Shown here piece after piece: positions 475-19,761 of a stretch of DNA of 20,783 nt (positions within the stretch are counted from its first letter, which is position 1; every line of letters starts with the position of its first letter). The stretch covers positions 2,265 through 23,047 of the forward strand of contig JAMYWO010000481.1 of the NCBI GenBank assembly GCA_024220525.1, in the 5' to 3' direction. Made by a program: the position numbers and the translations under genes. Below the pieces are notes generated by a model, which worked only from the letters and a program-made list of their open reading frames with translations, was not told where the DNA came from and ran no database searches. Source of the DNA: Cochliopodium minus (taxonomy: Eukaryota; Discosea; Himatismenida; Cochliopodiidae).

Positions 475-3400
475 TTACCAAAATTTGATGAAGACAGTAA
501 CGAAAGAAGTGTGGTCAAAGTCTTCAATTTTGACAACTTTAACTTTGGAATAACCTTCACAAAACTTCTTCTTGTAATCTTCCGCACTCTGTTGAAGTTG
601 TTGCTTGAAGTCTTCGAGGGAGATGGTGGAGGAGGGAGGATCTTTGGCGGTTAAATGCTCACACTTTTCGAGGGCGGAGAATTCTTTTTTGAGCTTTGAG
701 AGGATTGCGAAGAGTGAGTTCAATGAGTTTGGGTCGTTTGAGTTGAAAAATCTAAAAAAAAATTTAAAAATCAAAAAAATAAAATTTTAAAAAATCAAAA
801 TTTAAAAATAAAAAATAAAGAAATGTGGTTATTAACAAATTTTAAAATTAATTTTTAAAAATAAAATACAAAAACAAAAAAATAAAAATAATTTTAAAAT
901 AAAAATAATTTTTTAAAAGAAAGTAAAATAATACATCAATTAAAATAATTTAAATCTCAAAAAAAAATAACAAAAAAAAATAATTATTTTAAAAATTTAA
1001 AAAAAAAACAAAAAATATTAATTTTTTTTTACTTTTCAAAATTCTTTTGGTTGTTTTCGATTTGAGGAACCAAAACTTTAATTTTGTCAAGGGTGATGTG
1101 GTCATTAGGGTTGGACTGAATTCTCTTCAACAAAATGAACCATTCTAAAATGAGCACGAGCCATGTTTCTCTGATGAACAAAGCGAATTGTCTCCCTGAA
1201 AAAAAAAATAAATTAAAATAATATAATTTAAAAAATATAAAAAATATAAAGTTAAAAAATCAAAAAATTCAAAAATAATTAAAATTCAAAAAAAAATATA
1301 AAAAAAAATAATATATTTAAAATTTAAAAATAAAAACAAAAAATTTTATATAATGATTAAAAACTAACAAAAAATAAAGAAAAAAAATTAAAAAAATTAA
1401 AAAAAAATAAAAAATAATTGATGTTTAAACTATAATGAAAAAATATTAAATTATAAAGAAAAATTATTAATTTATAAAGAAAAATTATTAATTTATAAAT
1501 AAAGAAGTTTAAAAAAACAAAATAATTAAAATATTTACCAGTATAACTTAATCCCATTTTAATCAATATTTGCCATAATAATTTGAAGAAGAGGGTGATG
1601 TTGTATTGAACGTCGTTCAAGTCAAGGGAGTTAGGATCTTTCTTGGATTTTTCGATGAAGCCCAAAATTTTCTTCCACAATGGTGTCAGTTCTTGCAAGT
1701 ATTGTTTGTGAAGTGCATCCACATCAAATTCAATTATTGATTTTCCTATCAATTTTAAAAATAAAAAATTTATTTGAAAAATAAATTTATAAAAGTAAAT
1801 TTAAAAAATTAATAGATAAAAATAAAAATTAAACTTTAAAATTTAATAAATTAAAAATATTATGATGAAAAAAAATATGTAAAATAATATTTAAAAATAA
1901 ATAAAGTAAAATGTAAAATTAATAATTTGAAATATTTGATAAATAAAAAATTTGATAAAAATAAAATTTAAAAAATAAAATTAAAAAATAAAATTAAAAA
2001 AATTTTAAATTATAAAATTTTAAACCATCAGGTAGTTCATCATTTTCGAGTTGTTTCATTTCCACAGGTTGTTCGAATAACTTTAGCATCTTTTTTGTGT
2101 CTTCGTCAGTGTTGATGTCGATCGGGGAGAGTCCTTGGAGGCTCTGGAGGAAGTTGGTCAAGTTCTCCAACAAGACCATGCATCTGTTGATCAAATCAAA
2201 AAAGTTTTTCTTCATTGATTCATATTCTAAAAGAGAAATAAATTTAAAATGGAAAAGAAAAAGATTTGAATTAAAATTTAAAAATTAAATAAAATTTAAA
2301 AATAAAAATTAAAATTAAAAGAATAAAATTAAAAATTAAAAATTAAAAATTAAAAATATTATTCCAAAAAAAGATTCAAAATGTTCATAATGAAAAATAT
2401 TAAATATGAAATTTAAGTTATCAGAAATTAAAATTTAGAAAAAATATTATTTATAAAAAAAAAAGATTGATTAATAAAATTATAAACAAAAATAAAACTT
2501 TATTTTTACCATTTGAAGAAATTAATTCAGGAGGTAAAGAGTTGAGTTGTCTAGAAACTTTGATTAACAACAAAGTGGCTTTTCCGAGATCATCAGACAA
2601 AGACTTGAGCTTGTTGAAATTCTTCTTGTCATCCTTGAGAGTCAACAAGAGGACCTTGGACTCTTTGATGACGACCAAGATGGCGTTGGTGAAAGCGGAG
2701 ACGTCAAAGTTTCTTCCATCTCCGGTCAAAGCGTCCAAAAGAAGATTATTGAGATCACTAGCTTGGTTGTTGATCTTTCTTTTGGAGTCTATCGATTGTT
2801 CTGGTGATGGTTGGAGTTCCAATGTGAGAAAATCGTCATTTTCGAGATCTCCTAACAGATTTTCGACGAGTTCGATGTCCTTTTCGGTTTTTTGGTTGTT
2901 GTGGTAGAGGGGCTTCAAGAGGGAGTTGTAGAGCTGCTCGATCATCTTGGTGTCTTCATCTACGAGCTTCTCAAAGTCGCCTAGTTGAGCGGGCCATTCT
3001 TTGGAAGGTTCGAGGACACCTTCGATGAAGAGGGGAGCCATCTTGTTGATCTTTCCTCTGAGTTCGAGCACCATATATCTCAATTTGGAGTTTTCTTTCA
3101 GTTTGAGTTCGATGGAGTAATGCAATAAAATCAACAAGATCAACAAGGCGATCAATCTGTCTTGATCGAGATCATCTGTAGGTTTGTTTCCGTTCTTCGT
3201 GTTGGATTTCAAGGGAGAGTCAAGAATGTCGCCAATGTCCTTCAAAACTACCTGGCATTCTAATATGAGCTGCTCTATGTCCTTGTCTTTCAAGACGGTA
3301 GGTTTGTTGGCAATTTCTTTGATTTGTACGGATCCCTTTTTGGATGGAATGAGTTTGTCCAAAAACAGGATGAGATCTCCCAGTGAGATCAAAAAGTTAT

Positions 3401-6400
3401 TGTTTGCCAGTTCAAATCCTTTCTTGTTGTCCTTCGTCTTCAACAACTTTATTGCGAGAATGAACTCCTTGGATCTGTTTGCGAACACTTCAGTCAATCC
3501 GTCCAACTCCTTGGCCAACTCTTGATCTTCTAACGATGCGCTGATCACTTTGCACATTTTGATCAATTCCAAAACGAATCTCAAGAAAGCTTCGAGATCG
3601 AGTTTCAAAGGATCTTTCAACTTCTCCACCAATTGTTTGAGCTTGTTAGAGAGATTGGGAGCTTTGTTTTTCACCAATGAGTCAAAGTTTTCTGGTGATG
3701 TTGCTTTGACAATTTTTGCGTTAGGCGCGTTTTGGTTTTTCTTTCCTTCTTTGGCTTGGGATGGGGTAATGAGCAGATCAGACACATTCTCAATCTTCTT
3801 CTTTTGTTCATCTACATCTACTACATCGATGGTTCCCAATTCCAATTTTGATCCAGGGAGCTTGTCGAAATTTTCGAAATCAGACATCGACAACGAATCA
3901 AATGGATCATTTTCCAAGTTTCTGTTTTGTCTGGATGACAATGGATCGTACGCCATTTCTTCTTCAGGGTAGAACGCCTCCATATCTAGCTCTGGTCTGT
4001 TCCATTCGGAAGGTCTTAATCTGATACTTCCTTGTCCCTTTCCAAACAAAGGAATGTCATCGTCATCATCTGTATTAAAAAAAGATTAAAATTAAAAAGA
4101 TTAAATGAAAGAAATTTTAAATTTTATTTTATGTTCTTACACTCATCTTTCTTGTTCTTCTTGTTTTTCTTTCTGTTACGTCTTTCTTTTTTGTTCTTTT
4201 CACTTTCATCTTCTAATCCAAAGTTAGGATCATCCAAGTTGGACAAAAGTAAATCGATGTCCCCGTTGAGCTGCAAATCAGGAAACAAAAGGCCAATATC
4301 ATCCATCTTTTCTTCAATCTTCTCTGCGAGATCATCATCACTTGAATCAGAGGAGGAATCATCACTGCTGGAGAAATCATCATCATCATCCAATTCGTTT
4401 TGCTTCATCTTCTTGTACTTTTTCTTTTTATCTTTTTTTTTATCTTTCGGTTGATCATCTTCTGCAATCTTGTCCAATTTCTTCTTTGCCTTCTTCTCTT
4501 GTTCAGGAAGCAAGTTTTGCAACTCTTTGATGAGTTTTTGTCCTTCTTTCTTCTTGTTGTCATCATTGTCAAGATCATCCAAGTTGTTCAAAGCTTTCTT
4601 CAGGAACTCTTCGTTCAAATCAATGAGATCATCAAGCCCATCTTTCAACTCATCTTTGTCTTTATCCTTCACTGCCTTGTTAACCTTGCTGTTTTTCTTT
4701 TTTGCTTTGTCAGTAGCGCTAGATGGTTTATCTTTCAATTTATGTTCTATTTGAGGGATGTATTCTTGCACTGCAACGTAGTTTTTGAGAAGAGCTTTGT
4801 TCTTCTTTGGATCGTTGATGTGATGAGGATCGTTTTTGGACTCAACGAAGCTCTCTTTGATCTTTGGAGCATCTTCAATCATTTTGGGTACGAAATCTTC
4901 AAGTTCATCAATGATATCCAAGATATCTCTCAAGCTTTTGTCATTTTTATCTTGATGTTGTGCTATATCTTTAACGAGATTGGATAGATCACGGGTGTTT
5001 TCGATAGCATCAACCAAATCATCATCGATAGAATCACCATCCTCATATGAACTGCTATCCAAATCACTATCATCGTCATCATCGATCCCCATCAACTTGT
5101 TTTCGATAGATTTCAAATCATCATTGACTCCCAAAAGATTCTGCAAGTCAGAAAACTCATCATCCCTTTCTTTATCGAGATTCAATTGTTCCAATTCGTT
5201 AATCAAATCAAGAAGATCATTATTCAAATGTTTCACTTCAAGAACATCGAGATCATTTGGATTTTGGAAGTATTTTTTGAGATATTCTTCTTGAAGAGGA
5301 ACCATTTCTTCGATTTCCTTGAGATTCTTTTCGATCTCCCTCTTGTTGGTATCATCAGAGTGATTGGCAACATCATGCATTGTATCCAAGGTATCATCCA
5401 CAGCATCTTTGAACTCCTTGTTTGCTTTTTTGACGTTTTCTGGAGATTCCTTTCTTCTGATCGCATCCACCACATTCCCATGCTTCTTCTTCAAATCTTG
5501 GATCTTATCATTCGCATTTCTAGGTGCATTCAATCCACCAACATCAGATCCAATCTTCAAACCTTTCAATGAAGGAACTTTGTTTTTGTTGTCTTTGTTC
5601 TTATCATCTTTCAAACTATCTCCAAAACTGAAATCATCACCACCCAAATCGAATTCACTATCTTTTTTCTTTGGTCTATTGGAGGAAGAATTTTTATCTC
5701 CACTTTCATTAGTTCCTTTTTGTGGAGAATCAGTAGTTTTAGATTTCGCCTGTTTTTGCTTTCCAGAACCAACAGGATTTAACTTTCTCTGTTTTTCTTT
5801 CTCCAGTTGATTTTCTCTGATGATATCGATGAGATTAGCCTTCTCTTTCGGAATCTTCTCTTTCAATTCATCTAATATCTTTTCTACGAGATCATGATTC
5901 TTATCTGCTTTAGATTTCATCTTTTCCAACACATCTTTGGGCACATCATCAGACTTGTTGATTTTGTATATTGCATGTTTGACATTGGCGAGATATTTTG
6001 TGAGAGAATCGTCCAATTTCTTTGCAAGTTTGTTCAATCTCTTCTTTTTCTTCTTTCCTACTTCTGGAGCAATTTTTCTTGTTGCATTGATAGCATTCTG
6101 ATAGTAATTACATACATCATAAACATGTTTGGGAAGAGATCCATTCTTATTATTAATCGAATCGTCCAATTTCTTTGCAGATTCTGAACCGTTCTTGTAT
6201 GCAAGGAGAATGATCTCGATGGGAGATAGATTGAATGCATTCTCAAGTGAATCCAAAACATTAGCAAGATCAATGTTCTTTTCTTCAATGTTATCCAACT
6301 TCTTTCTTGGATTCTCATTCGGATGATTCTTGAGATCTTTCGATACTCTCAAGTTTTCAGGAGGGATTTGTTGAATCTCTTTGATTGCTTTGGCGATTTT

Positions 6401-9400
6401 GTCTTGAGTATCTTTGTTTGAATAAATAGGGTTCAAAGCTTTCTTCTTGGCGTTTTTGGACAAAGGAACAGATTGATCGTTCAATTTTTCAGCTCCTGCT
6501 TCAATGGCATGAGGATTCTTCTTCTTCAATGCCTTGTTTTGCCAATCAATCTGTTTTCTCATTTGATCTACAAGATCTTCAACAGGATCAGACAATAAAT
6601 CAATTAATTCTGCATGATTTTGATTCAAATTGGAGATATCTGCTTTCAACAACTTTAACAACACCTTGTTTTCAGGATCAGCTTGAGATTTGATAGCATC
6701 ATGTGAAAGATCGTTCAAGTTCTGTTCTACTTTTCTTACCATCTCTTTCACCTTGTTTCTCTTTTCAGGTGATCCTTTTTTCTTGTCAACATACTTGTCT
6801 GCTTTGTCGAGTGTCTTCTTCACATTCTCCAAAATTTTTTTCAAAAGTTTTTTTACACCATCAATATCACCATTTGCAGCACTCTCCAACAATCTTCCCA
6901 AGTTTTCTCTTTGCGCAATGTTCAACTCTGTAGGGTTTTTTGGGAGGGAATCATTCAATTTCTCTTGTTCATCATCAATGTAATCATAAAGTGATTCTTT
7001 ATCTCCACCTTCTTTTCCTGGTAAAACAATGTTAGGTTCTCCTTTCTTCTTGTCGTAATAGTTTTTCTTCATTATTTCGTCAATGGATGGTTCTTCAAAG
7101 AGAGGAGTGAATTCAGGCAAAACACTTTCTTTAAGAGGGACATTCTCTCCTGCCAAAGCCTTTCTCAACTCTTTCAAAGGTTCTACAGTTTGTTTGTTTC
7201 CCTTTTTGGATTTGGGCTTGTTTATGTCAGAGTATTTCTTTGAATCATCAGATAGATCAGACATTGTCTTTTGAAGATCATTGAGTTTCTTCTTTATTTC
7301 ATTGGGATCCTCTTTGTTATCGATTGAAGAAATGATATCATCCACTTTGTTATGCATATCAAGTTGTTTATCAATGATATCTTGATTAGATAATGGAGGT
7401 GTTGCGAGATTTTGAATTTTATCTTCGAGTTTTTCTAAATCACAAAGCAATCCAGCAAGATTTTCTTCTTTGGAGTTTTCTTTATCATTTTCATTGTTGT
7501 TATCTTTTTCCTTGTCCTTCTTATTAAAAGATACAACTCCTTCTACAAGTTCTTTGATATTATCATCCAAATCCTTCAATTGATTTTCATAATACTCTTT
7601 CAAATCTCCTTCAGGAAGATCCTTTGCGACATTTTCTGAATCTTTTTTGAAATCATTTCCCAATTTCTTTATTTCTTCAACATTAGGATTCAAATCTTCT
7701 GTTTTATTATCTTTGAGTTGAGATATGGTATCCAAAATCTTTTGGAGAGGCAATGATGCAGAATTTTCAAGCTTATTTCTATTTTTGAGCTTTTTGGAAG
7801 ATATCTTTTCATTATCATCGTTTGTTGGTGTTGATGAAGTATCATCAGACAAAAGTTCCTTTAACAAGTTTCTTAGTGATTGGATATCTCTCAATGGTTT
7901 AGCTCTGTTATACTTTGGAACGTTTTGTTCAAGAGGAGTGTTCTTAGATTCGTTAGAAAGAGATTTCAATACTTTATCTTTCAACTCTGGTGACTCTTTT
8001 TTGATTGACTGAATAATTTTTTGTTTGCTGCTTGGAGAATGTTTGTTTGCATGATTCAAAGCAGTTTCTACTAACTTTTCTGCTTCGGACAATAAATCTT
8101 GGAGATCTTTTTGTTTAGGAGAATCAGATTTTAACAAGATTTGAGAAGAAGCCAACAATAAATCTGCTTTTTGAACATTCCCGTACAATGGCGCATCTAC
8201 GGAATCACATATTTGTTCTGCACTTTCTTTGCAAAATGAACTTTCTAACAAAATATTTTCTTTCGAAGATTGAGAAGGAACAAGGCAATAATCAGAAAGT
8301 TTATTGACATTGTTTTTGTGAGAGGAGATGTTTTCGAATGCTTTTTTCTTTTTCTCTTGGTTGGGAGAGATGGATGCACAAATGGATCCGAAATCACTGA
8401 GATTGTTGGAGTTTTCTCTCACTTTATTCAAGTTGATATCTTGGGATGAATGATCGTTGTTTTTCACAGATTGATCAATGGCTTCGAGGGATTGGATGGA
8501 ATCTTTAGATGAAGCCAAAACGATCAAGTGGGGCTTAGGATACAACAAAGAGATGAAGAAAATGATCAACTGTCTCAATCTTGTGCATTCAGAAAGGAAT
8601 TGCAAGCGATTCAAATTCCTTTTTGGGCTGTTTTCGGGTGATGTGATGAAAGTAATGACTGATTTCAAAATATCTACCAATGTGGAATCGTACAAAGGAG
8701 TCAACAATGGAACTGTACGAACGAATGATTCTCCCAAGTCTGTTTTGTTGTTACGTGCTTTGGAAACTTCCAAATTCAATCCTTTGAGAATGAGACTGTG
8801 AAGATTCTTCATTTGATCTGCAGAATCAACAATCTTTTGGTAGTTGTCCATTGATTTTGGATCCAATGAACTTTCAACGAAAGAACTTAATGTTTTGCTT
8901 TCTTTTATTAGAAGAGATAGAAGAGAATGATGGGATGGATCGAACAATGAATCTTCTGTTCCTTTCAATCCAAAATCAAGCTCTTTCATCATATCTGCCA
9001 AATCATCTTTCACTTTATCCTTTTTCTCTTCATCAAAATCGACGATTATCTCATCCAATTTTAACAATGCATCATCCACATCCTCTACCAATTGTAATGG
9101 CAAGTATTTTTGTTCAAGATCTTCAATATCATTCAACAAATCAACATTCTTTTGAGCAACTTTTTCTTTGGTTGGTTTCTTGTTCTTTGATTGCAACAAT
9201 TCTTTTTCAGATGGAAATGGAAGAACGATATCTCTGATTTCATTCAATTTTTGATTGATCTCTTCACAGTTCTTTAGAAGATCATCAATAGATTGCGGAT
9301 TTTTAAACTTTTCTTCTACTACCTTGTTGGTGTTGTCGTTTTTCTCGTCCAACTTTTTCTCCAACTGATCGATCAACTTTGAAAGCTTTTCTGCTTCCTT

Positions 9401-12400
9401 CTCATCGTTCTTCAAAGAAACAAGCTTCCCTGCCGAAACAGCAAAATTTTTTGCTTGTTTAGAAACTTCTGAAGAGTTTTCGAGAGTGTAAGGTACATCA
9501 TTGGAGCTAACAGATGGAGGAATAGCTTCCAAAAGTAATTGAGCTTTGTTCAATTGATCAATAAGATCACATTTGGTGATTTCAGGTATGAGATCCAATG
9601 CCAACTTGATCTTTTCTAAAGGATCATCCACTTTCTTGATCAGTTGGATATCATTGTTGGAATCAGATAATGGCAAGACATCAAGTTTGTTGTTTCCTTG
9701 TTTCTCGTTCTTTTCGACTTCTTTCTTTGCATGATCGTTGAGCTTGTTTGCTCCATCTTTGGCTTCCTTCATTTCTTTCTTCAACTTTTGTGTCAAAGGT
9801 TTTATTTTCTCATGTGTCTCTGGTTGCTGTAAAGACAACAATTTCAAGTTGAACAAAACAGGGACCATCTTGGAATCCAATTCCTGGATGGATTGAGGAA
9901 GATCAGATTCGATTGGATATAAATCTCCGCAATTAGCAACTTTATCCACATTATCTATGGCTATCTTTGCTTTTTTGATTGAATCTGAAAGTTTATCAAG
10001 AGGAGTATCCAATGAGCAAAGATCATATACACATTTGAGAACCTTTTCAAGTTTATCTGCCGATTTCTCCACTTTCTCTTTTGCTTCTTTCTTTTTGTTT
10101 TGATCTTTTGCATCTCTCAAGTCATTGATTTTCTTGAGATGATCGATGAGAGCAGATTTGAGAACAGGTGAAAGTTTCTTCAAGTTTCTTCTTTGGAAAG
10201 ATGGGATCTGTTCATCATCCAAAGCACAAATGATGTTTTTATCAAGTTTATTTGCAGCATTTGAGATCTGATCGATGTATTTCTGCTCTAAATTTTGGTT
10301 TGTGTCAAGAGTATCAAGAGGGATCTCATCGAGGATCTTCATCTCATCTTGTGCACTGATTTGTACTTGACGAAGAGGTGAAATACTGGCAGACAAAGCT
10401 CCTTTTAGGACTGCTTTGTAGTTTACAGCTGCATTTGTCTTTTCTGCTTCGGTTGATTTTGGATTGTTCATCACATTCTTGAAATTCTCGAATTCATTCT
10501 CTACTTCATCACAAATCAACTCTAAAACTTTCTCGTGAGGAGATACAGACAAAGGTTCGTTGATTGCTTCCTTGATATCTTCCTCAGAGATTCCCTTTTT
10601 AGTTGTGGAGAATGGTTTTTTATAATCATCTTTTTTATCGTTAGAAGATAGCTTTGATATTCCTTTCTTTCCTTTGTTGGATGGCTCGTTGATTTTCTTC
10701 AACTTGTTCAAAAGTCTATCGGTTTCTTTTTCGACAACTTTGGTGGTTTGAGGAGTGTTCACATGATAAAGTAAAGGAAGATCATCGTTCAAAGAAGTGT
10801 TGGTGGAAGATATATCTTTGGGCTTCTTGTTTACATCAGATTTGTTTTTATCATCAGATAGATTATCGAGAAGATGATCCAATTCTTCGATGATAGAATG
10901 TGCAAGGGCACTTGTCTTGATCTCTTTAGGAACTTTTTGTTTCTCAAGGAAATCATCAAGAATATTGATATCATTCTCCTTCAGCTCGTTGATGTTATTT
11001 GAATTAACCTTGTTCCCAGATGTTTTCAATGAATCATCGAATTGTTTCAATTGATTCTCAGGCAATTCAAGATACTTCTGATCAATCTTCTTTCCAGGAT
11101 TTAATCCCTCAACTTTGTTCTTGTGATTGTGATTGATGTTCACCACCAAAAGTTTCTTTCCATCATCGATCGCATTCTTCAATAACTCAATCTGTTTTCC
11201 ATCTTTGCTACCTTCAGAAATGAGAACATTAAGTTTTTCTATGTTCTTGATATGTCTCTCAGAAGCCAAAGCAAGTTTGTAATCAGAAAGAAGTGCAAAC
11301 TTTTTGATCGCAATATTAGGTTCTACATAATTTGTTTTCTTCGATCTCACTTTTTTAGGAGCCTTCTCTACATTTTTCGATTCTAAAGTTCTGGTAGGAA
11401 TTTTATTTCTTTCAATCTGTAAAGGTAAAGGATCAGATTTGGTCTTCTCATAATCGTTTCTGGTTGTATCCAATCCCTTTTTGAGATTTTGAAGCTTTGG
11501 ATTGTTTTTGATGGCATTATCTTGTTCTTTGATTTCCTTGAGCTTGTCTTTGCACAAGGAGAGATATTTGATGGCTTCTGGCTCCTCCAACTTTCCGCTC
11601 GATAGATCTTTTGGAGAAATGTTTTGTGGAACATCAAATTCTTTTTCGAGCAATTCAATAGCTTTCTCAGCATTATCTTCATGAGAATTCTAAAAGTAAA
11701 ATAAAAAATAAAAAATCAAAAGAAAAGAAAAGAAGAATGTATTACTTGATTGAGATTATCATAGTTCAAAAGATTTGGTCTGTATTTATTTACTAAAGCA
11801 CAAAGAGGAAGAGCATTTTGGAGACTAAAAACGGAGAAAGAAAATTAAAATAACAAATAATGATAAAAAAGAAATGAAAAATAAAATTTCTCTTACTTTT
11901 GTTTGACAGGTTTTGCTTTTTCTATTTTTACACCTTTGTAATTTCCCACTTCGTCATCCAACCAATCTAACAAAGAAAGTTTGAGCTCCTCCAAAGGATC
12001 GAGCTTCAAAATTTCGTCTTCAAAATTCTTTGCGATAACTTCCCTGTTCAACTCTTCTTCAGGCAAGATCTCTTCGTTTAGGTGGAAAGGTTCGTCCAAG
12101 ACTTTGTACTTTTGGATCTTTTCTTTCTCAGGCAAAGTTTTGTTGACATTATCAACGTGATTCTTGATGATATCTTTGAATTTAGGAGATTTCAAAAAGT
12201 TTTTGAGATCCATCTGGTTTTCTTTGGCACTTTCTTCGATTTCTTCGAGATTAGGAGAGAACAAAGCGACAGGATGAGATCTTCCTTGTCCCAATACGAA
12301 AGCGTCTTCGATGAAAGGATGTTCATTCAACTCTCTTTCTAATTCTCTTGGATTCACAGGTGTTCCATCATCCAAAGTGAACTGATCCTCTTTCAAACCT

Positions 12401-15400
12401 TTCACTTTAAGATAACCATCTTTATCTACTTCTCCCAAATAACCTGTTTTCAGTTTTCCATTGTTCACTTTGAGATCAAATTCTTTTGGATCATTGGATA
12501 CAGCAGACAACAAAGAAGGAGATGCTACAATGATTTCTCCGTTTCCTTTTTTGTCTTTTTCGTTTGAAATTTCAACTTTATTTCCTTCAATGGGTCTTCC
12601 AGAAGTTCCGTTCTTCTTGTGTTGCTTGCCAGAAAAAGTGATAGGACCACAAGCCTCCAACTCTTCAAAAAGAGGCAAAACAGGGAGTTCCAAATCATCA
12701 AAATATTGTTCATCGTTTTTGCACAAAGGACCATCAACGGAAATAGCAAGAGAACATTCCTTCAATCCAAAAGATTCTTTTTCCTTTTCTTTTTCATTTT
12801 TGTTGGAACTTTTTGCTTTCTCAAGAGGAATTTTTCTTTGTATTTTCTTTGAGATTTTGTTCCATTTCTTTGCAGGAGAAACAACCACACTAGGTTGAAC
12901 TTCTTTCATGTTTTCAAGCTCTTTATGAGGAGATTCTGCAAAATAAACTTTGTACCCAAGCATTACAGGAAGGTGTACAGCGAACAAAAGCTCGTCCAAA
13001 TGAGCCAAAGGTCTAGATGAAAGATACTTTGAATTTTCGTTCAATCCAACAAGAGGAGCAATCCTTCCTGAATTATTTTGTAAAGCAGCATGGCTTAGAA
13101 CAATTCCCTTTGGAGAAGATGTTCCCAATCTTTTGTAGATCAAGACTGCGGGGCTTTCTGGTTTTGTGTTGAGAACCCTGGATTCTATTGTGGATGGATC
13201 AGTGTTTTCTCCAGATTTGATAAACTCGTTCCAAGGAAGTAAATCTTTTCCATTTCCGCTATCTTCGTTCAAAAGAAAAACTTTTTTGAGAGATGGAAAT
13301 TTGTTTCTGTTTTTATCTATCAAAGAAAATTGATCTTTCTCTTGAACAAAAGCGATAGGAGCGTTGGTGTCCTTAAAAACAAGTTCCAACTCTTTCAATT
13401 TCAAGTTGGTGAACAAAGGAACAGCCACAGCTCCCACAAATTGACAAGCGAGATAAACGGTGGAAGATGCAGGTGAGTTTCTTGAGATGATCAAAACTTT
13501 TTGTTGAGGATTCACACCATTAGATACCAATGATCTAGATGCATGTTGAACATTGTCAAAATACTTTCCCCATGTCACAGGCTCCCATTTGTTTCCTCTT
13601 TTCACATAATAAGCGTCCTTTCCGTTATCAGAAAGAGCCAAGTTGACGAGTTTTCCGACAGCACAGTCAAAGTTAGGAGATACACTTGAATACAACATCT
13701 CAATTTCTCCCACATACTTTTGATTGATCAGATCTCTCACAATATTATCCACAGGATTTAGTTCTCCACCTTCGATAGTGAATGGAACTCTCAAGATGTT
13801 GTATCTTGCTACTTTTTCTTTGTTTTCGAGAGTGTTGTTGACGAGATCCACGTGCTCTTTGATTTCTTTTTTGAAAAGATCAGAATTCAAGAAATCTTTA
13901 GTTTCCAAGTTTTTAGATTTGCAGTGTCTTTCGATAGCCTCCATGTCAGGAGAAATCAAAGCAGCCAAAAACTTGCGGTTGTTTCCTACCAAACATGCTT
14001 TATCAATGAATTGATGTGATCTCAAAGCATTTTCTATTTTTAGAGGATAAACCTTGATACCTCCACTCAAAGTACTAAAAAATTAAAAATGAATTAAAAT
14101 TTTAAAAAAAGTTAAAATTAAATTTTTTTTTTTTTACATCAAATCAGATCTTCTTCCCCTTATGTACAAATTTCCATCTTCTATATATCCAATGTCGTCT
14201 GTGTAAAAGTAATTGTTTTTCAATCTCTTCTGGGTGAGTTGGGGATCGTTGAAATACCCACTAAACACGCAAGATCCCTTGACCAAAACCTCCGAATCGT
14301 CTCCAATCTTGATTTCAACTCCAGAAAGTTGTTTTCCTGCACTTCCCACCTTGGAAACTACAGATTTGTTGAGAGTTGTGATACCGCTTGTTTCGCTTTG
14401 TCCATAAAACTCAATGATGTTGATTCCGAACGCCAAAAAGTATCTTATGATCAATGTATCGATGGACATCACTCCCAAAATGGAAATTCTCAAGTTAGAA
14501 AGGCCCACCAAACTCAAATACTTTGACTTGCTTTCTTTAGGCAACTTTTCTACTTGAGAAGAAGACACTTTACTCGAAAACAAGAAGTAGATTCTTTCCC
14601 AAAGTTTGGGAGAAGTGTAGAAAATGGTTGGTTGTACTTCTTTCAAGTTTTCTACCACTTTGTTTGAACTTTCCGAGTAATACACTTTAGATCCTGAGAC
14701 GGACGGAATCCAAATTGAGAAAAGTTGTTCGTTGGAGTGAGCCAGAGACAAACTGCAAAGATATGTGTCATCTGCTCTTATTTCAAATGATTTTTGTGAT
14801 TCTTTTGAAATCAAAGACAAATTTTTATGTGTTAAAATAACTGATTTTGGTTTCCCTGTAGCTCCTAAAAAATTTTATTTTAAAATTTGAATAAAAAAAT
14901 ATCAAATAAAACAAAATAAAAATAAAATAAAAATAAAATTTTAATTTTAATTTATACCAGGAGTATATAAATGAGTAGATTCATCATTTTCCGAAAGTTT
15001 GGAAAGTAAATCTTGAACTTGATCAGATTTTGTTGACTCTCCCTTGCTCAAAAACTGGTTCCAAGACAAAATGTCGTTCCCATTTGAACCACTTTCTCCG
15101 TACCTCTTGTAAAGAATGATATATTTGATGGTGGTCACACTCGAACGGATTTGTTGCACTAATTTCAATTCTGCTTCGCTTTCAACCAAAACAAATCTCG
15201 CTAAAAAATAAAAAAAATCAAAAAAAATAAAAAAATGTTAAATATTTTATGAATTAATAAAATAAAATATAAAATAAAAATCATTTTTTAAAAAATTAAT
15301 TACCTTTAGAATGTTCGAGAATGTATTTTATGTTTAACACTGAAAAAGTTTCGTAGATACCAACTGGAACAGCCCCTATCATTTGTGCCCCAAGATAAAA

Positions 15401-17811
15401 AGTAGACCAAGAAGGGCCGGATCTACCAACAATAGCAACTCTCTCCCCCTTCTTCACTCCTTGAGATACGAAAGATCTTGCAACACCTTCTATTTGTTGT
15501 GAGTATTCTTTCCAAGTAACTGGTTTCCAGCTGTTTTCTGAATAAAAAACAAAATGAAATTGAAAATTTTCTTAGAAAAAGAATTAATAATTTAAAATAT
15601 TTTTATTAAAAGAAAAATTAAAAGAGATGATTTTTCAGAAAAACAAAAAAAGAATAAAAATGATTTAATTTCAATAAAAAGTAAATATTTTAAAAAAAAA
15701 TAATATGAAAAAAATGATTAAAGTTTGTTATTAAAGAAATATTAAAATAAAAAATAAAATAAAAATTTTAAAACCAAAAATTAAACATTAAAAAATATTT
15801 CTTACCTTGCTTTGTAAAATAAGCATTTGTAGGACCTTTTATTCCATTTGCTAAAGTAAATATTCTTGAAGGAATGGTGTCAGAGGATGAAGAAGACGAA
15901 GAATCATCTGAAGATCCCAAATCATCCAAATTGTATTTAACAGTGGGATGTTTTTCAAGTCCTTCGATTACGTATGAGATGAAAGTCATCATCGCTTTCT
16001 CTTCTGGTTCTTCGCTGATGTTTTCTGGGTTAATTACATGTGGAACTTGAAATTCTTTCTCCAAAACATTTATAACCTTATTAAAAAATATTTAATTTTG
16101 AAAAAACATTAATTTTTAATGATGCTGATTAAAAAAAAAAATTTGACAAAACAAAATGAAAAGTATGTAGATTTCGATAACAAAAAAAATTATTAAAAAA
16201 CATTCAATTAATTTTGAAACAATTATATAACAATAAAATAAAACTATTAATTTAAAATAAAAAATGAAAATAAGAAATAAAATTATTAAAAATATTGAAA
16301 TAAAAAATAAAATAAAAGATTAAACAAAATTACTAAAAAAACATTGAATTATTTTCAAAAAATTGTATAACAATAAAATAAAACTATATTAATTTAAAAT
16401 AAAAAATGAAAATAAGAAATAAAATTATTAAAAAAATTGAAAATAATAATAAAAAAATAAAACTATTAAAAAAATTGTTTTAAAAAAAAATAATAAAATA
16501 ATAAATAATAAAAAATAAAAATAAAGAAATAAAAAAATAAAAAAAGAAATAATATCACTAAAATTGAAAATAATGATTTAGATGATTTTAAAAAAAAAAT
16601 TTTTACTTCTTTGATGTTTGATAACTTTTCTTTCCCATTTATAATTTTTCTCGGATTTATAGCGTTGGGTTTCTTGGAATAAATCATGCAAGCCAAAACA
16701 GTACCATTACTCATGTCAGTGGTCAAGTTTTTCACTTCGACGGGATATCCCTTTGTGAGGTTTTGGCAGTAGAGCAAAAGCTTGTCTTTGGCTGTGAGAT
16801 TTGATTTTGTAGGTTTTTGATCGTTTTCGTTGTTTGGGGAGGTGGAATCTCCTTCCAAGTTATCTAATCCTTTCAGATCTATTTTGTTGATTTGATATTG
16901 CAAAATCAAAATCCATATCAAACCCTGAATGATTTAAAAGGAAAATATAATTTGGATTATGATCTTGATAGGATAATATTTTTTGATTTTACCATTATAA
17001 GCTTGAGATTTGAATCGTAAATATCTAATATTTATGTGGAAGATATTAATTTTTAGATATGGTCCAAGTGAATAGGGATATATTGATTATTTTTTACCTG
17101 TTGATCCAATGTTTTCCAATCTCACTCCTTCTTTTTTCAATGCTTCCAAAGCCAAAGTAATATTTGACATTTTATGCATCTAAAATATTGAAAAATTAAA
17201 ATAATATTGAAATTTTGTTTGGCAATAAATAAACTTCAATAGAAAATGTTATCGAAAATATAGGATGCATATATATTGTCTATATTAGATGTTTTATTAT
17301 CATTTCATAATTTGATTCAAATAAGTTAATGGACTTTAAAAAATATAAAATATAAATTTTATTTAAAATTTAAACTTTTTGTCAAATCAAAAATATTTTC
17401 TTACTTGAAATTTGGGATTAGAATTGATGCCTCCCAAAGATTTTTTGATGAGAATTTCAACCAATTTAGCCAATTGAACACCACTATGAAAATCCTCCAA
17501 TTTTTCTATTTTGGTATTGATGCTTGATAGATTGATATTCACCCAATTCTTGAAACTAATTCAGTCCAATACAAAGAAAATAAAATAAATATATAATAAA
17601 TTTTTTGAATGTTGATATTATAATTGAAATTGTGAAAAATGATCAGATATGTGTTCCTATTCAAATTACCTATCATATTGAACTTGAAATAATAAAAATT
17701 ATTAATTTATTTTATTGGGCAAATTTAATTATTTTTGAATTGGATACCTTTCTCCCATTTGTCTAATTTATCATAAGAGTTGATGATATCTTTTTTATCT
17801 TGCCCTTTCAT
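475..17811 (-). CDS. giant CH-CH / double acyl-CoA-synthetase-like / CH / helical-rod protein (about 4,782 aa)
   Basis: This is a spliced gene of 18 exons read right to left: 17811-17748, 17682-17670, 17555-17405, 17179-17098, 17024-16993, 16924-16607, 16076-15806, 15537-15304, 15200-14958, 14864-14138, 14074-11897, 11824-11746, 11689-4141, 4069-2510, 2226-2026, 1745-1539, 1195-1033 and 751-475. Every junction is GT-AG, phases match throughout, and the total is 14,349 bases including TAA. The start ATG has an in-frame TAA immediately upstream. Domain order is CH1 (about residues 19-125), CH2 (157-262), synthetase-like 1 (287-840), synthetase-like 2 (844-1403), CH3 (1405-1517), then a charged helical rod to the end. 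No signal peptide is seen, so a cytoplasmic actin-associated scaffold is inferred. Least certain is the 3' end: exon 17 could itself end in TAA at 1033, and exon 18 could splice on through a GTAAAAG site at its end. I know of no named family with this order. Confidence 0.85.
1196..1538 (-). other. 343-base A/T-only intron 16
   Basis: The intron lies between exons 16 and 17 of the giant gene, with GTAAAT at its 5' end and TTTTTTCAG at its 3' end. The sequence is almost pure A/T, with T-rich coding strand. Nothing else is seen in it. Confidence 0.8.
3666..4069 (-). other. non-helical, aromatic and acidic island at start of exon 14
   Basis: Residues about 3981-4115 differ from the surrounding rod. 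After a DDDD run there is an FGKGQGSIRLRPSEWNRPE segment, then closely spaced Phe, Tyr, Met and Pro residues within acidic sequence and several DP and SxSD pairs. The stretch looks disordered and suited to short linear motifs or a docking site. No known motif is claimed. Confidence 0.5.
11531..11997 (-). other. third CH domain (CH3), split by two small introns
   Basis: At about residues 1405-1517, joining the end of exon 11, the 79-base exon 12 and the start of exon 13 recovers a single CH domain. It has a LSLLDWLDDEVGNYKGVKIE opening helix and GY-GV turn, then ALPLCALVNKYRPNLLNYD, which is equivalent to the family's GLAFCALIHKYRPDLIDYD. It continues with NAEKAIELLEKEFDVPQNI and a PEAIKYLSLCKDKL closing helix. 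It resembles type 2/filamin CH2-like domains more than the single type 3 CH. Lone CH2-like domains usually bind actin weakly and may serve regulation. It sits between the synthetase-like pair and the rod. Confidence 0.85.
12001..13680 (-). other. degenerate acyl-CoA synthetase-like domain 2 (pseudoenzyme)
   Basis: About residues 844-1403, all within exon 11, repeat the fold of the preceding domain. Parallel segments include WEPVTWGKY, QFVGAVAVPLF, YKVYFAES and NMKEVQPSVVVSPAKKW, each with a counterpart in domain 1. Catalytic elements are worn away. The P-loop position reads YKRLGTSSPKG (1025-1035). The TGD motif is TGY (Tyr1257). The GR motif is GL (Leu1272). The catalytic lysine position in the LTPTLK-like segment is Glu1386. 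A Lys/Glu-rich insert lies near residues 1130-1145. The two domains abut without a spacer, which fits an old tandem duplication followed by decay of enzymatic function while the fold was kept, perhaps as a binding or dimer partner. The reading frame is fully open, so this is not a pseudogene. Confidence 0.82.
13690..15878 (-). other. adenylate-forming (long-chain acyl-CoA synthetase-like) domain 1
   Basis: At about residues 287-840 (exons 7-11) the sequence follows the ANL superfamily, ACSL/LACS branch. It has a WKPVTWKEY entry, a GERVAIVGRSGPSW strand and an AMIGAVPV-like helix (QMIGAVPVGIY). The P-loop is YTPGATGKPKSV at 467-478. The A5 motif is FYGQSETSG with E627, then YTDDIGY with D693, GRR with R707, and a C-terminal lobe ending near LYSS. 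In active family members the P-loop reads close to YTSGTTGxPKGV; here the serine is Pro469 and the first threonine Ala471. At the position of the lobe's catalytic lysine (LTPTLK) the sequence is LNPVDN, with Asn822. The region between the ERI helix and the A5 motif looks shorter than usual for long-chain enzymes. Nucleotide or acyl-ligand binding without full catalysis is plausible but is inference. Confidence 0.85.
16077..16606 (-). other. longest intron (530 bases) of the giant gene
   Basis: This is an A/T-only intron inside CH2, bounded by GTAAAA and TAATAAG. It contains a direct duplication described separately. No gene or conserved element is visible inside it. Confidence 0.85.
16188..16442. 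repeat. tandem duplication inside intron 6
   Basis: Two copies of a block of about 115 bases, offset by 140-141 bases, lie at about 16188-16301 and 16327-16442. They share an uninterrupted run of over 40 bases and differ by scattered single changes in the first part. This is a recent local duplication within intronic sequence. Confidence 0.85.
16993..17024 (-). other. 32-base micro-exon (exon 5)
   Basis: This exon encodes DIYDSNLKLIM, the CH1 segment equivalent to the family's DIVDGNLKLTL, and links IGST in exon 4 to GLIW in exon 6. It is flanked by TTAG and GTAAAA splice sites and keeps the phase exactly. Confidence 0.88.
17670..17682 (-). other. 13-base micro-exon (exon 2)
   Basis: The bases between an AG at 17684-17683 and a GT at 17669-17668 on the minus strand encode the VQYDS junction of CH1. 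Inclusion corrects the phase between exon 1 (64 bases) and exon 3, and completes the conserved WEKVQ-SFKNWVN start of the domain. No other splice choice I tried keeps the frame. Confidence 0.85.
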
Positions 17812-18111
17812 TTATAACAAAATTTATACTTAGTTATGTTTTTGCTTTTGAAGGTTATAAAGATAAATTTTTTTTTTATTTTTTTTCTCAATTTGAATTC
17901 TATCAAATACAAGGAATATATTTAACATTGAATTGATTCAAAAATCAAGATTATCATTTATATTTGGTAAGAATGTGTATAAAAAGAAAGGATATTTAAT
18001 TTATAAAAATAAGGAAAATAAATAAAAATAAATCAAAAATAATTTGCATCTGATTTTTATAAAACCCAAACATTAAATTATTTTTTAAAAAACTATAAAC
18101 ATTGTAATTTT
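17812..18111. promoter_or_regulatory. intergenic spacer holding the giant gene's upstream region
   Basis: This 300-base A/T-rich spacer separates the stop of the upstream membrane-protein gene from the ATG of the giant gene, both on the minus strand. On the coding strand a TATAAATT-like string lies about 20 bases before the ATG. It may be a promoter element, but such strings are common by chance in this composition. Confidence 0.3.
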
Positions 18112-18873
18112 TCAATCATCCAAACTGACATCAATGACACCCTCCCCACCCAAACCACTAACCATCTCATAAGTCTTAAGTTTTTGTTCTTGGCGGTACT
18201 TCTTGATAAGGAAGAAAGAGAAGACGACCAAGGAGATGAGAAGAACACCAGGCAAAGAAACCATGAATCCCACAAATAATAAAGATTTCAAAACCCTCGA
18301 TTTTAAATCGTCCATATCTTCAGAAGTAAATGCCAAAATACCTACATTAAAATTTAAAAAATATTAATGATTAAAAAAAATATTTAAAATTAAAAAATAT
18401 TAATGATTAAAAAAAATTTTTTTAAATTTATTTATTTTTTGATTTTTATTTTATTATTTTTCTAACCTACATTATGAGACTCATAATCAGTTGTGGTGTA
18501 AGGCAAAGCTTCAATGGGAATATAACAACTAGCAACCTTTATTTTTTTAATATTATAAAGATAAACTATTTTTTATTTTTATTTTTTATTTTTTTATTTT
18601 TATTTTTAAATAAAAAAAATTATTTTTATTATTTAATTAAAAAAATTGTTTTTTATTTACTTGACCCAATAAATATTTTGATTCATCTTTGTTTGCTTCC
18701 TCTAAAGACTTTCCCTCCCAAAAATACTCGTAAAAAAGACCACTTTTGTCCTTCATGGTATACTCCTTGTTGGAGAAGCTAACACCGTACCAGACTTTGT
18801 GTCCCTCTTTTGTTTTCACCACTTCTGCTTTTTGTAATACACATTCTCCTGGAATCCATTCGCCATTTGACAT
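18112..18873 (-). CDS. single-pass membrane protein with DUF3592-like region (170 aa)
   Basis: Three exons, 18873-18661, 18536-18467 and 18341-18112, join in phase with GT-AG introns of 124 and 125 bases and end in TGA. The ATG follows an in-frame upstream TGA. The N-terminal part (about residues 5-90) has a short strand-rich look. It contains VWYGVSFSNKEYTM, then KYLLGQVASCYIPIEALPYT, which recalls the DUF3592 pattern of a Y-V-Y/F-S core followed by a G-x-V-x-C-Y-x-P segment. One strongly hydrophobic helix at about 115-140 is followed by a basic KKYRQEQK stretch and a short tail ending in acidic residues. No clear N-terminal signal peptide is present. Function is unknown. It lies upstream of the giant gene on the same strand, but independent transcription is assumed. 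Confidence 0.65.
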
Positions 18874-19761
18874 GGAGAAATAAACCTTTCATAAATTTTC
18901 GTTTTAAAAATTTTTTTAATACAAAATTATTTGATATAAAATTATTTGATATAAAATTTTTTAATTTTTTATTTTTTTATTTTAAAATTTAATTGGTTAA
19001 AAATTTTCAAATATTTTTTTGATGATTAGTTTAATTTTAAACTTTTCATAAAGTTCGCCCATCTTCATTTTTAATTTATTTAAGGGAGCAATTAGACAAT
19101 ACTTGAATAAAATGTGAGATTTTAGGTTGATATTATTAAATAAATTAAATTTTAAGATTGACAAATAAGATACCAAAGTTATGATCCTGTTAACGATCAT
19201 TTTTACTAACAAATTTTCGTCATACAATTATTATTTTTAAACAAAAAATATTAAAAAGACAAATATCAATTTTTCAGTCACAACAATTTTAATATTTATC
19301 AGATTTATTTCTCAAAATATTTACTCCTGATATTAAATTAAAAAGATAAAGGCAGCTAACATTGAAATCCCTTTAAAGGGGACTCAATATAATCCAATTT
19401 CGATTGGTACATTTGTCTTGAATAAATTTTATTTTAAATTTTGAAGTGATAACTTAAACACTGTTTATATTTCGAGTATTAATAAGTGGGAAAATTTTCA
19501 TTCAAATATATCAAACTAAAATTTATTCAAATTTTTTTAAACTTTATCGAGCAAAAGTAAAAACTAAGAATCGGATCGAAATTAAAATATTTTACTTTCA
19601 AATGAAGATATGTTACTTTGGGAAATGACTTTTAAGATAATGTGATAATAATTATAGTTATCACCATCATTTTAAAGCATTTACTAGAAATCATCTGATA
19701 TAAACAGAACTCAGAATTTTGATGCTAATAAATTTAATACTATTCAATTTTAATTAAAATA
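18874..19761. other. gene-poor A/T-rich stretch
   Basis: No convincing exon was found on either strand. The 76-codon open frame on the minus strand at 18997-19227 is made almost only of A/T-driven codons. A perfect 12-base palindrome CCCTTTAAAGGG occurs near 19368-19380, and a 7-base inverted repeat (GTGATAA/TTATCAC) around 19642-19664. Neither has a known meaning here. Confidence 0.6.

Follow-up and report, generated by a model that had tools for sequence, protein, structure and literature searches.

The window, a stretch of 20,783 nucleotides of Cochliopodium minus DNA, carries on its minus strand an 18-exon gene whose product joins two N-terminal CH domains, two acyl-CoA-synthetase-like domains (AMP1 and AMP2), a third CH domain and a very long rod. 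We consider it probable that this gene is a chimera of two families and that its product is an actin-bound scaffold in which the AMP modules are non-catalytic. The features that we refer to are as follows.

16871..17760, minus strand: CH1, residues 18–132, exons 1–6, including the 13-nt microexon 2 (17670–17682), which completes the start of CH1
15957..16798, minus strand: CH2, residues 157–260, exons 6–7; together with CH1, an alpha-actinin-type actin-binding domain
13672..15878, minus strand: AMP1, acyl-CoA-synthetase-like domain 1, residues 287–846, exons 7–11; motifs partly altered
12004..13671, minus strand: AMP2, acyl-CoA-synthetase-like domain 2, residues 847–1402, inside exon 11
11897..14074, minus strand: exon 11, with the inferred fusion point near residues 1402–1406
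11540..11994, minus strand: CH3, residues 1406–1514, exons 11–13; clusters with CH2 of the C61 gene
478..11539, minus strand: rod, residues 1515–4782, exons 13–18; helical periodicity
475..477, minus strand: apparent stop codon, possibly part of a splice donor instead (TTTTG/GTAAAAG)

Re-derivation of the 18 exons on the minus strand from 17811 to 475 gave 14,349 coding bases, encoding 4,782 residues and a TAA in a joined frame without an internal stop, and thereby reproduced the exon number, the length of about 4,782 residues and both ends given in the original prediction. All 17 introns run from GT to AG and have an A+T content of 77–95%, and a TAA stands in frame immediately 5′ of the ATG. 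A Pfam search of residues 1–1527 of the spliced protein, the kind of domain search proposed with that prediction, returned AMP-binding (6.7e-91, two stretches), CH (1.6e-39, three stretches) and AMP-binding_C_3 (1.9e-25, two stretches), in agreement with the order CH1–CH2, synthetase-like 1, synthetase-like 2, CH3, rod that had been read from the letters. The layout of the ANL enzymes, an N-domain (PF00501) and a C-terminal PF23562, was found with two stretches of each, and among the solved structures in the PDB, CoA ligases, fatty-acyl and others, match AMP1 (best, 3.4e-23).

Textbooks treat CH-CH proteins as actin crosslinkers and acyl-CoA synthetases as enzymes of metabolism. In the window protein an N-terminal CH1 is followed by CH2, and both match alpha-actinin-type actin-binding domains of solved structure (best in the PDB, alpha-actinin-like protein 1, 4.8e-37); CH1 retains the NLKLI.GLIW.LIL stretch typical of such domains, and the signature NLKLIMGLIWILIL of tandem-CH actin-binding domains is present in CH1–CH2. 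By analogy with these proteins, CH1–CH2 should dock on F-actin. Members of the alpha-actinin, spectrin, plakin and filamin superfamily share with the window protein an N-terminal CH1–CH2 followed by a long part, which in the window has helical periodicity, whereas the window protein adds the AMP-binding pair and the third CH domain in between. MICAL, whose CH domains are among the CH1–CH2 matches, resembles the window protein in that a CH domain is joined to an enzyme active at F-actin; MICAL has only one CH domain, however, and its enzyme, a flavin monooxygenase, has a fold unrelated to the AMP-binding fold.

The C-terminal part had been described as a huge helical rod, and its roughly 3,270 residues do have a strong helical periodicity (1.49, against 0.985 with a standard deviation of 0.039 in 40 block shuffles), which AMP1 and AMP2 do not (1.01 and 0.93). 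A long, continuous coiled coil, in contrast, is disfavoured by the 138 prolines of the rod, whose median spacing of 18 residues would be better fitted by many short helices with charged linkers. Self-BLAST at E 0.01 found no internal repeats in the rod. Pfam gave no match in exons 13 and 14 and one match below the cut-off (0.058) in exon 18, so that spectrin repeats, EF hands and filamin or plakin repeats were not detected in these three rod exons; among four related rods from the alignment, Pfam likewise found no known family, with one weak, unrelated match (0.017) in one member. A PDB search with a profile of exon 13 and its relatives returned no match up to E 1, and all 11 matches of a second such search (E 0.38–0.74) fell on the CH part of the profile and none on the rod.

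Two relatives of the rod, the C61 gene of the same genome and the protein P0037, continue beyond the last Trp of the window protein, and the stop codon lies in TGGTAAAAG, a possible donor, GTAAAA being the opening of 6 of the 17 window introns; the 3′ end at 475 is therefore uncertain, and the gene may be incomplete there. A coding-like segment at 79–213 on the minus strand ends in a GT donor. Considered as exon 19, its frame does not fit exon 18 directly, and searches of C61 and P0037 stayed at chance level; it may be an additional exon of this or of another gene. On the other side of the gene, what looks by eye like a small upstream multi-exon gene lies at 18100–18890 on the minus strand; it starts with MSNGEWIPGECVL and ends near a membrane-spanning stretch.

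In the genome that holds the window (44.65 Mb, 598 contigs; the window gene lies on the contig labelled C463), CH matches at E up to 0.001 number 90, of which 84 exceed the cut-off; AMP-binding matches occur on at least nine contigs (14 of 72 candidates scored), with weaker ones on C30, C77, C134 and C594. On four of the nine contigs, C463, C9, C52 and C106, a CH domain is encoded in the same gene as the AMP-binding domain. The C9 gene has the order CH1-CH2-AMP1-AMP2-coil-class III nucleotide cyclase-coil, and the C106 gene the order CH1-CH2-coil-AMP1-four AMP2-type domains-cysteine-rich fingers (the fingers assigned by eye). CH1 is thus evident in both; the readable part of C52 begins in the last part of CH1, continues with CH2 and AMP1, and breaks off after the first part of AMP2. 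The four tandem AMP2-type domains of C106 (L026:3661 to L027:2984) are 86–98% identical to one another and were therefore apparently amplified recently, though they are catalytically degenerate. Four public proteins pair this type of CH2 with an AMP domain: P0001 (CH2-AMP1-AMP2-cyclase), P0002 (CH2-AMP2 without AMP1), P0038 (CH2-AMP1) and P0039, in which the alignment places the end of CH2 before AMP1 and Pfam shows AMP only. Identity to the window is 40–48% for AMP1 (C9, C52, C106 and P0001) and 43–49% for AMP2 (C9, C106, P0001 and P0002).

A protein search gave 35 matches among 7,997 scored candidates, both CH and AMP domains being present in P0001 and P0002 only; 30 of the 35 have AMP-binding without CH, the majority of them being large proteins of many domains and several bearing bacterial or archaeal names; the other three (P0024–P0026) combine CH with filamin-type domains without AMP. 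When the CH2 region of C9 was searched against proteins of 0.55–1.75 times 586 residues, three proteins were returned from 358 candidates, every one of them with AMP-binding. The window protein has the arrangement of this CH-CH-AMP1-AMP2 family, in which AMP1 and AMP2 come after CH2 and every domain falls in its own clade. The order is not rigid, as CH2 directly precedes AMP2 in P0002 and a coil separates CH2 from AMP1 in C106, and the C-terminal parts vary from a cyclase (C9, P0001) to cysteine-rich fingers (C106) and CH3-rod (window). The window gene has the same CH2 beside AMP as these relatives and CH3-rod in addition; in the readable parts of the relatives, neither CH3 nor a window-type rod was found. 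Pattern searches for relatives of exon 11 in viral and prokaryotic genome collections gave 16 and 74 matches, respectively, none of which was confirmed. The CH-AMP linkage pointed out in the original prediction is unusual, as claimed, but it is not an isolated case: the window gene is one member of a family, and its CH3-rod part has an AMP-free sister in C61.

Several other loci of the genome were recorded in the course of these searches. The CH1-CH2 of C37 is of the window type, its two domains being 62% and 57% identical to those of the window, and no AMP domain was found in the stretch read; there (L037, minus strand, 1423–1926 and 2107–2646), CH1-CH2 is followed by two near-identical segments of about 165 residues of no recognised type. 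On C41 and C345 (L030 and L034), AMP-binding lies in long open frames (1,144 and 1,021 residues), each extended at the N-terminus by a part of no recognised type, and the P-loop of C41 is altered to TSGTHS. C1:260055-266636 (plus strand) contains two CH matches and then five class III nucleotide cyclase matches in one frame of 1,940 residues, perhaps another gene that combines tandem CH domains with an enzyme. At C11:110969-112652 (minus strand), a nucleotide cyclase match comes after two CH matches of that strand, and a CH match at C143:53574-53816 (minus strand) lies inside an extraordinarily long open frame of 17,951 residues.

The C-terminal part of the window protein leads to a different family. 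In the C61 gene, CH1-CH2 is followed directly by the rod, and the genome AMP searches gave no AMP-binding match on the C61 contig. The C61 rod is 48% identical to the window rod over 2,507 residues and 46% over 519 residues; rod searches of the genome found these two copies and no third. The window protein thus belongs with C61, P0036 and P0037 to a CH-rod family: it shares their rod, about 3,000 residues in length, and its rod is preceded by the CH domain that precedes the rod of C61, the CH2 of C61 corresponding to the CH3 of the window. This correspondence is borne out by pairwise identities, CH3 being 45% identical to C61 CH2 but 27% to CH2 of the window itself and 28% to C9 CH2, and by the CH tree, which groups CH3 with C61 CH2 (local support 0.986). 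Among the rods, P0036, the nearest relative, which begins at the equivalent of exon 13, groups with the window and P0037 with C61 (139 columns, versus 41 and 38 in favour of the other groupings). Should P0036 and P0037 both belong to a single second organism, the two rod types would predate the split. By our own reading of the sequences, intron places are also shared with each family: the intron before GLIW recurs in C9, that in the A8 segment in C9, C52 and C106, and that at the P-loop in C106, and the first intron of CH3 has an identical place and phase in C61.

Given an AMP-free CH1-CH2-rod gene on the one hand and CH-AMP genes on the other, the window gene looks like a chimera. We suggest an in-frame fusion, inside what is now exon 11, between a CH1-CH2-AMP1-AMP2 gene and CH2 plus rod of a gene like C61; placing CH-CH-AMP1-AMP2 before CH2-rod is the simplest history, and the direction of fusion is inferred on that ground. 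The searches for relatives brought to light families that share the parts, but the complete fused order was found in the window gene alone.

The catalytic motif set of acyl-CoA synthetases (ANL) comprises the P-loop, YGxxE, TGD, GRxxD and the A10 Lys. In AMP1 of the window, three of the five are altered: the P-loop reads TPGATG instead of TSGTTG, with two positions changed; TDD replaces TGD, the Asp being kept; and the A10 segment reads NPVDNIVR instead of TPTLKMKR, so that both lysines, either of which could be the catalytic one, are replaced. YGQSE and GRRSD are retained. The window is the exception with respect to the A10 lysine, at least one of which is kept in the other four of the five AMP1 copies that cover the segment. 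TSGTTG is intact in two of the seven AMP1 copies with a readable P-loop (C9 and P0038), reads TPGTTG in C52 and is truncated or rewritten in C106, P0001 and P0039. C9 AMP1 retains all five motifs (TSGTTG, YGQSE, SGD, GRKKD and KMKR) and P0038 AMP1 all four within its covered part, which makes it probable that the ancestral function was enzymatic.

Degeneration has gone further in AMP2. In all eight copies compared, which include the four near-identical copies of C106 and so represent five independent lineages, the TSGTTG P-loop, the TGD Asp and the GR Arg are absent, and the Glu of YGxxE is kept, the YG before it surviving as well in those of C106. Seven of the eight lack the A10 lysines, and the eighth, P0001, has a Lys one place on. 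AMP2 of the window accordingly lacks the P-loop, the TGD Asp, the GR Arg and the A10 Lys, and its YGxxE is reduced to Glu. Between the window and C9, AMP2 is nevertheless as conserved as AMP1 (49% and 48% identity), which argues for a kept, non-catalytic role; the AMP2 fold seems to be under constraint. In a small tree made with one program, in which one distant single-domain copy (C41) stands beside AMP2, the copies of AMP1 group in one clade (support 0.940) and those of AMP2 in another (1.000), so that the internal duplication looks older than the gene copies. The loss of three key motifs from every AMP2 copy and the three altered motifs in AMP1 of the window bear out the earlier suggestion that the synthetase fold may serve binding or contact instead of catalysis; because AMP1 keeps YGQSE, GRRSD and the TGD Asp, and AMP2 the Glu, nucleotide binding or residual activity is possible.

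That the window gene is not one gene but two or three, or an assembly error taken for one, we regard as very improbable. Both of its parts do occur apart in the genome, as genes of the C9/C52 type and of the C61 type. CH3, however, is spread across exons 11, 12 and 13, and the outer exons reach well into its neighbours: exon 11 is one open frame that encodes the C-terminal part of AMP1, AMP2 and the first part of CH3, and exon 13 is a single open frame of 2,516 residues that encodes the last part of CH3 and then rod. Under any reading other than one gene, CH3 would be broken. The frames and the CH3 introns match those of C61, and with just 48% identity the window rod is not a duplicated piece of the C61 contig. 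The single gene originally predicted is thus upheld by a split CH3, fitting frames and uniformly GT..AG introns.

For the product of this one gene, we propose that CH1-CH2 binds F-actin, with the AMP pair placed behind the docking head as in the relatives; there, acyl-CoA may be made by AMP1 at sites rich in actin. Neither AMP fold of the window protein looks catalytic, and our best guess is therefore that AMP2, and probably AMP1 too, would be a module that docks a partner or holds a nucleotide or acyl ligand, while CH3 and the rod may extend as a long tether or crosslinker. It is unlikely that AMP1 of the window is instead an active acyl-CoA synthetase, delivered by the CH domains to actin-rich membrane with AMP2 as an inactive regulatory partner; the full motif sets covered in C9 and P0038 and the YGQSE and GRRSD of the window would accord with activity, but the altered P-loop, the TDD and the replacement of both A10 lysines all speak against it. 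The motif loss could also be decay and not reuse. We give still less credence to the view that the AMP domains are decaying passengers of the fusion without a selected role, CH and rod alone being of importance. Lost motifs in both AMP domains and the existence of the AMP-free C61 are what such a view would expect, yet about 1,100 AMP residues are still open without a stop, the degenerate AMP2 is conserved between the window and C9 to the same degree as AMP1, and C106 has multiplied its AMP2-type domains to four. Most likely, therefore, on the sequence comparisons made here, the window protein would be a scaffold derived from a family of actin-docked acyl-CoA synthetases.

Compared with long-chain acyl-CoA synthetases, the window protein likewise has the N- and C-terminal ANL domains, in two copies, but it is fused to CH domains, and the motifs are gone from AMP2 and altered in AMP1; the best-scoring match outside the family is, by its name, a long-chain-fatty-acid-CoA ligase of Promethearchaeota (26%). 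In the literature covered, which included few subscription journals, no description of a fusion of CH and AMP-binding domains was found, and passages of two papers (PMC8409312 and PMC2565699) mention CH entries in one place and AMP-type or acyl-CoA synthetase entries in another. The CH-AMP-rod combination of known modules is apparently new at the family level, and domain-architecture databases may list it.

A wider reading, which we put forward tentatively and hold at somewhat less than even, is that this lineage uses the tandem CH as a general docking head for enzymes, tying acyl activation and cyclic-nucleotide signalling to F-actin. The enzymes carried by the proposed head would be synthetase pairs (C9, C52, C106 and the window) and cyclases (C9 and, apparently, C1 and C11). 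The window protein would then be a pseudoenzyme offshoot, its enzyme pair turned into a ligand- or partner-sensing relay between actin and the giant rod. As both parental gene types are present in the same genome, the fusion event itself is readable. With its active-looking and pseudoenzyme copies, the CH-AMP family offers a handle on whether lipid activation is located at actin-rich membrane, as in phagocytosis, and a way to ask how an enzyme fold turns into a structural part.
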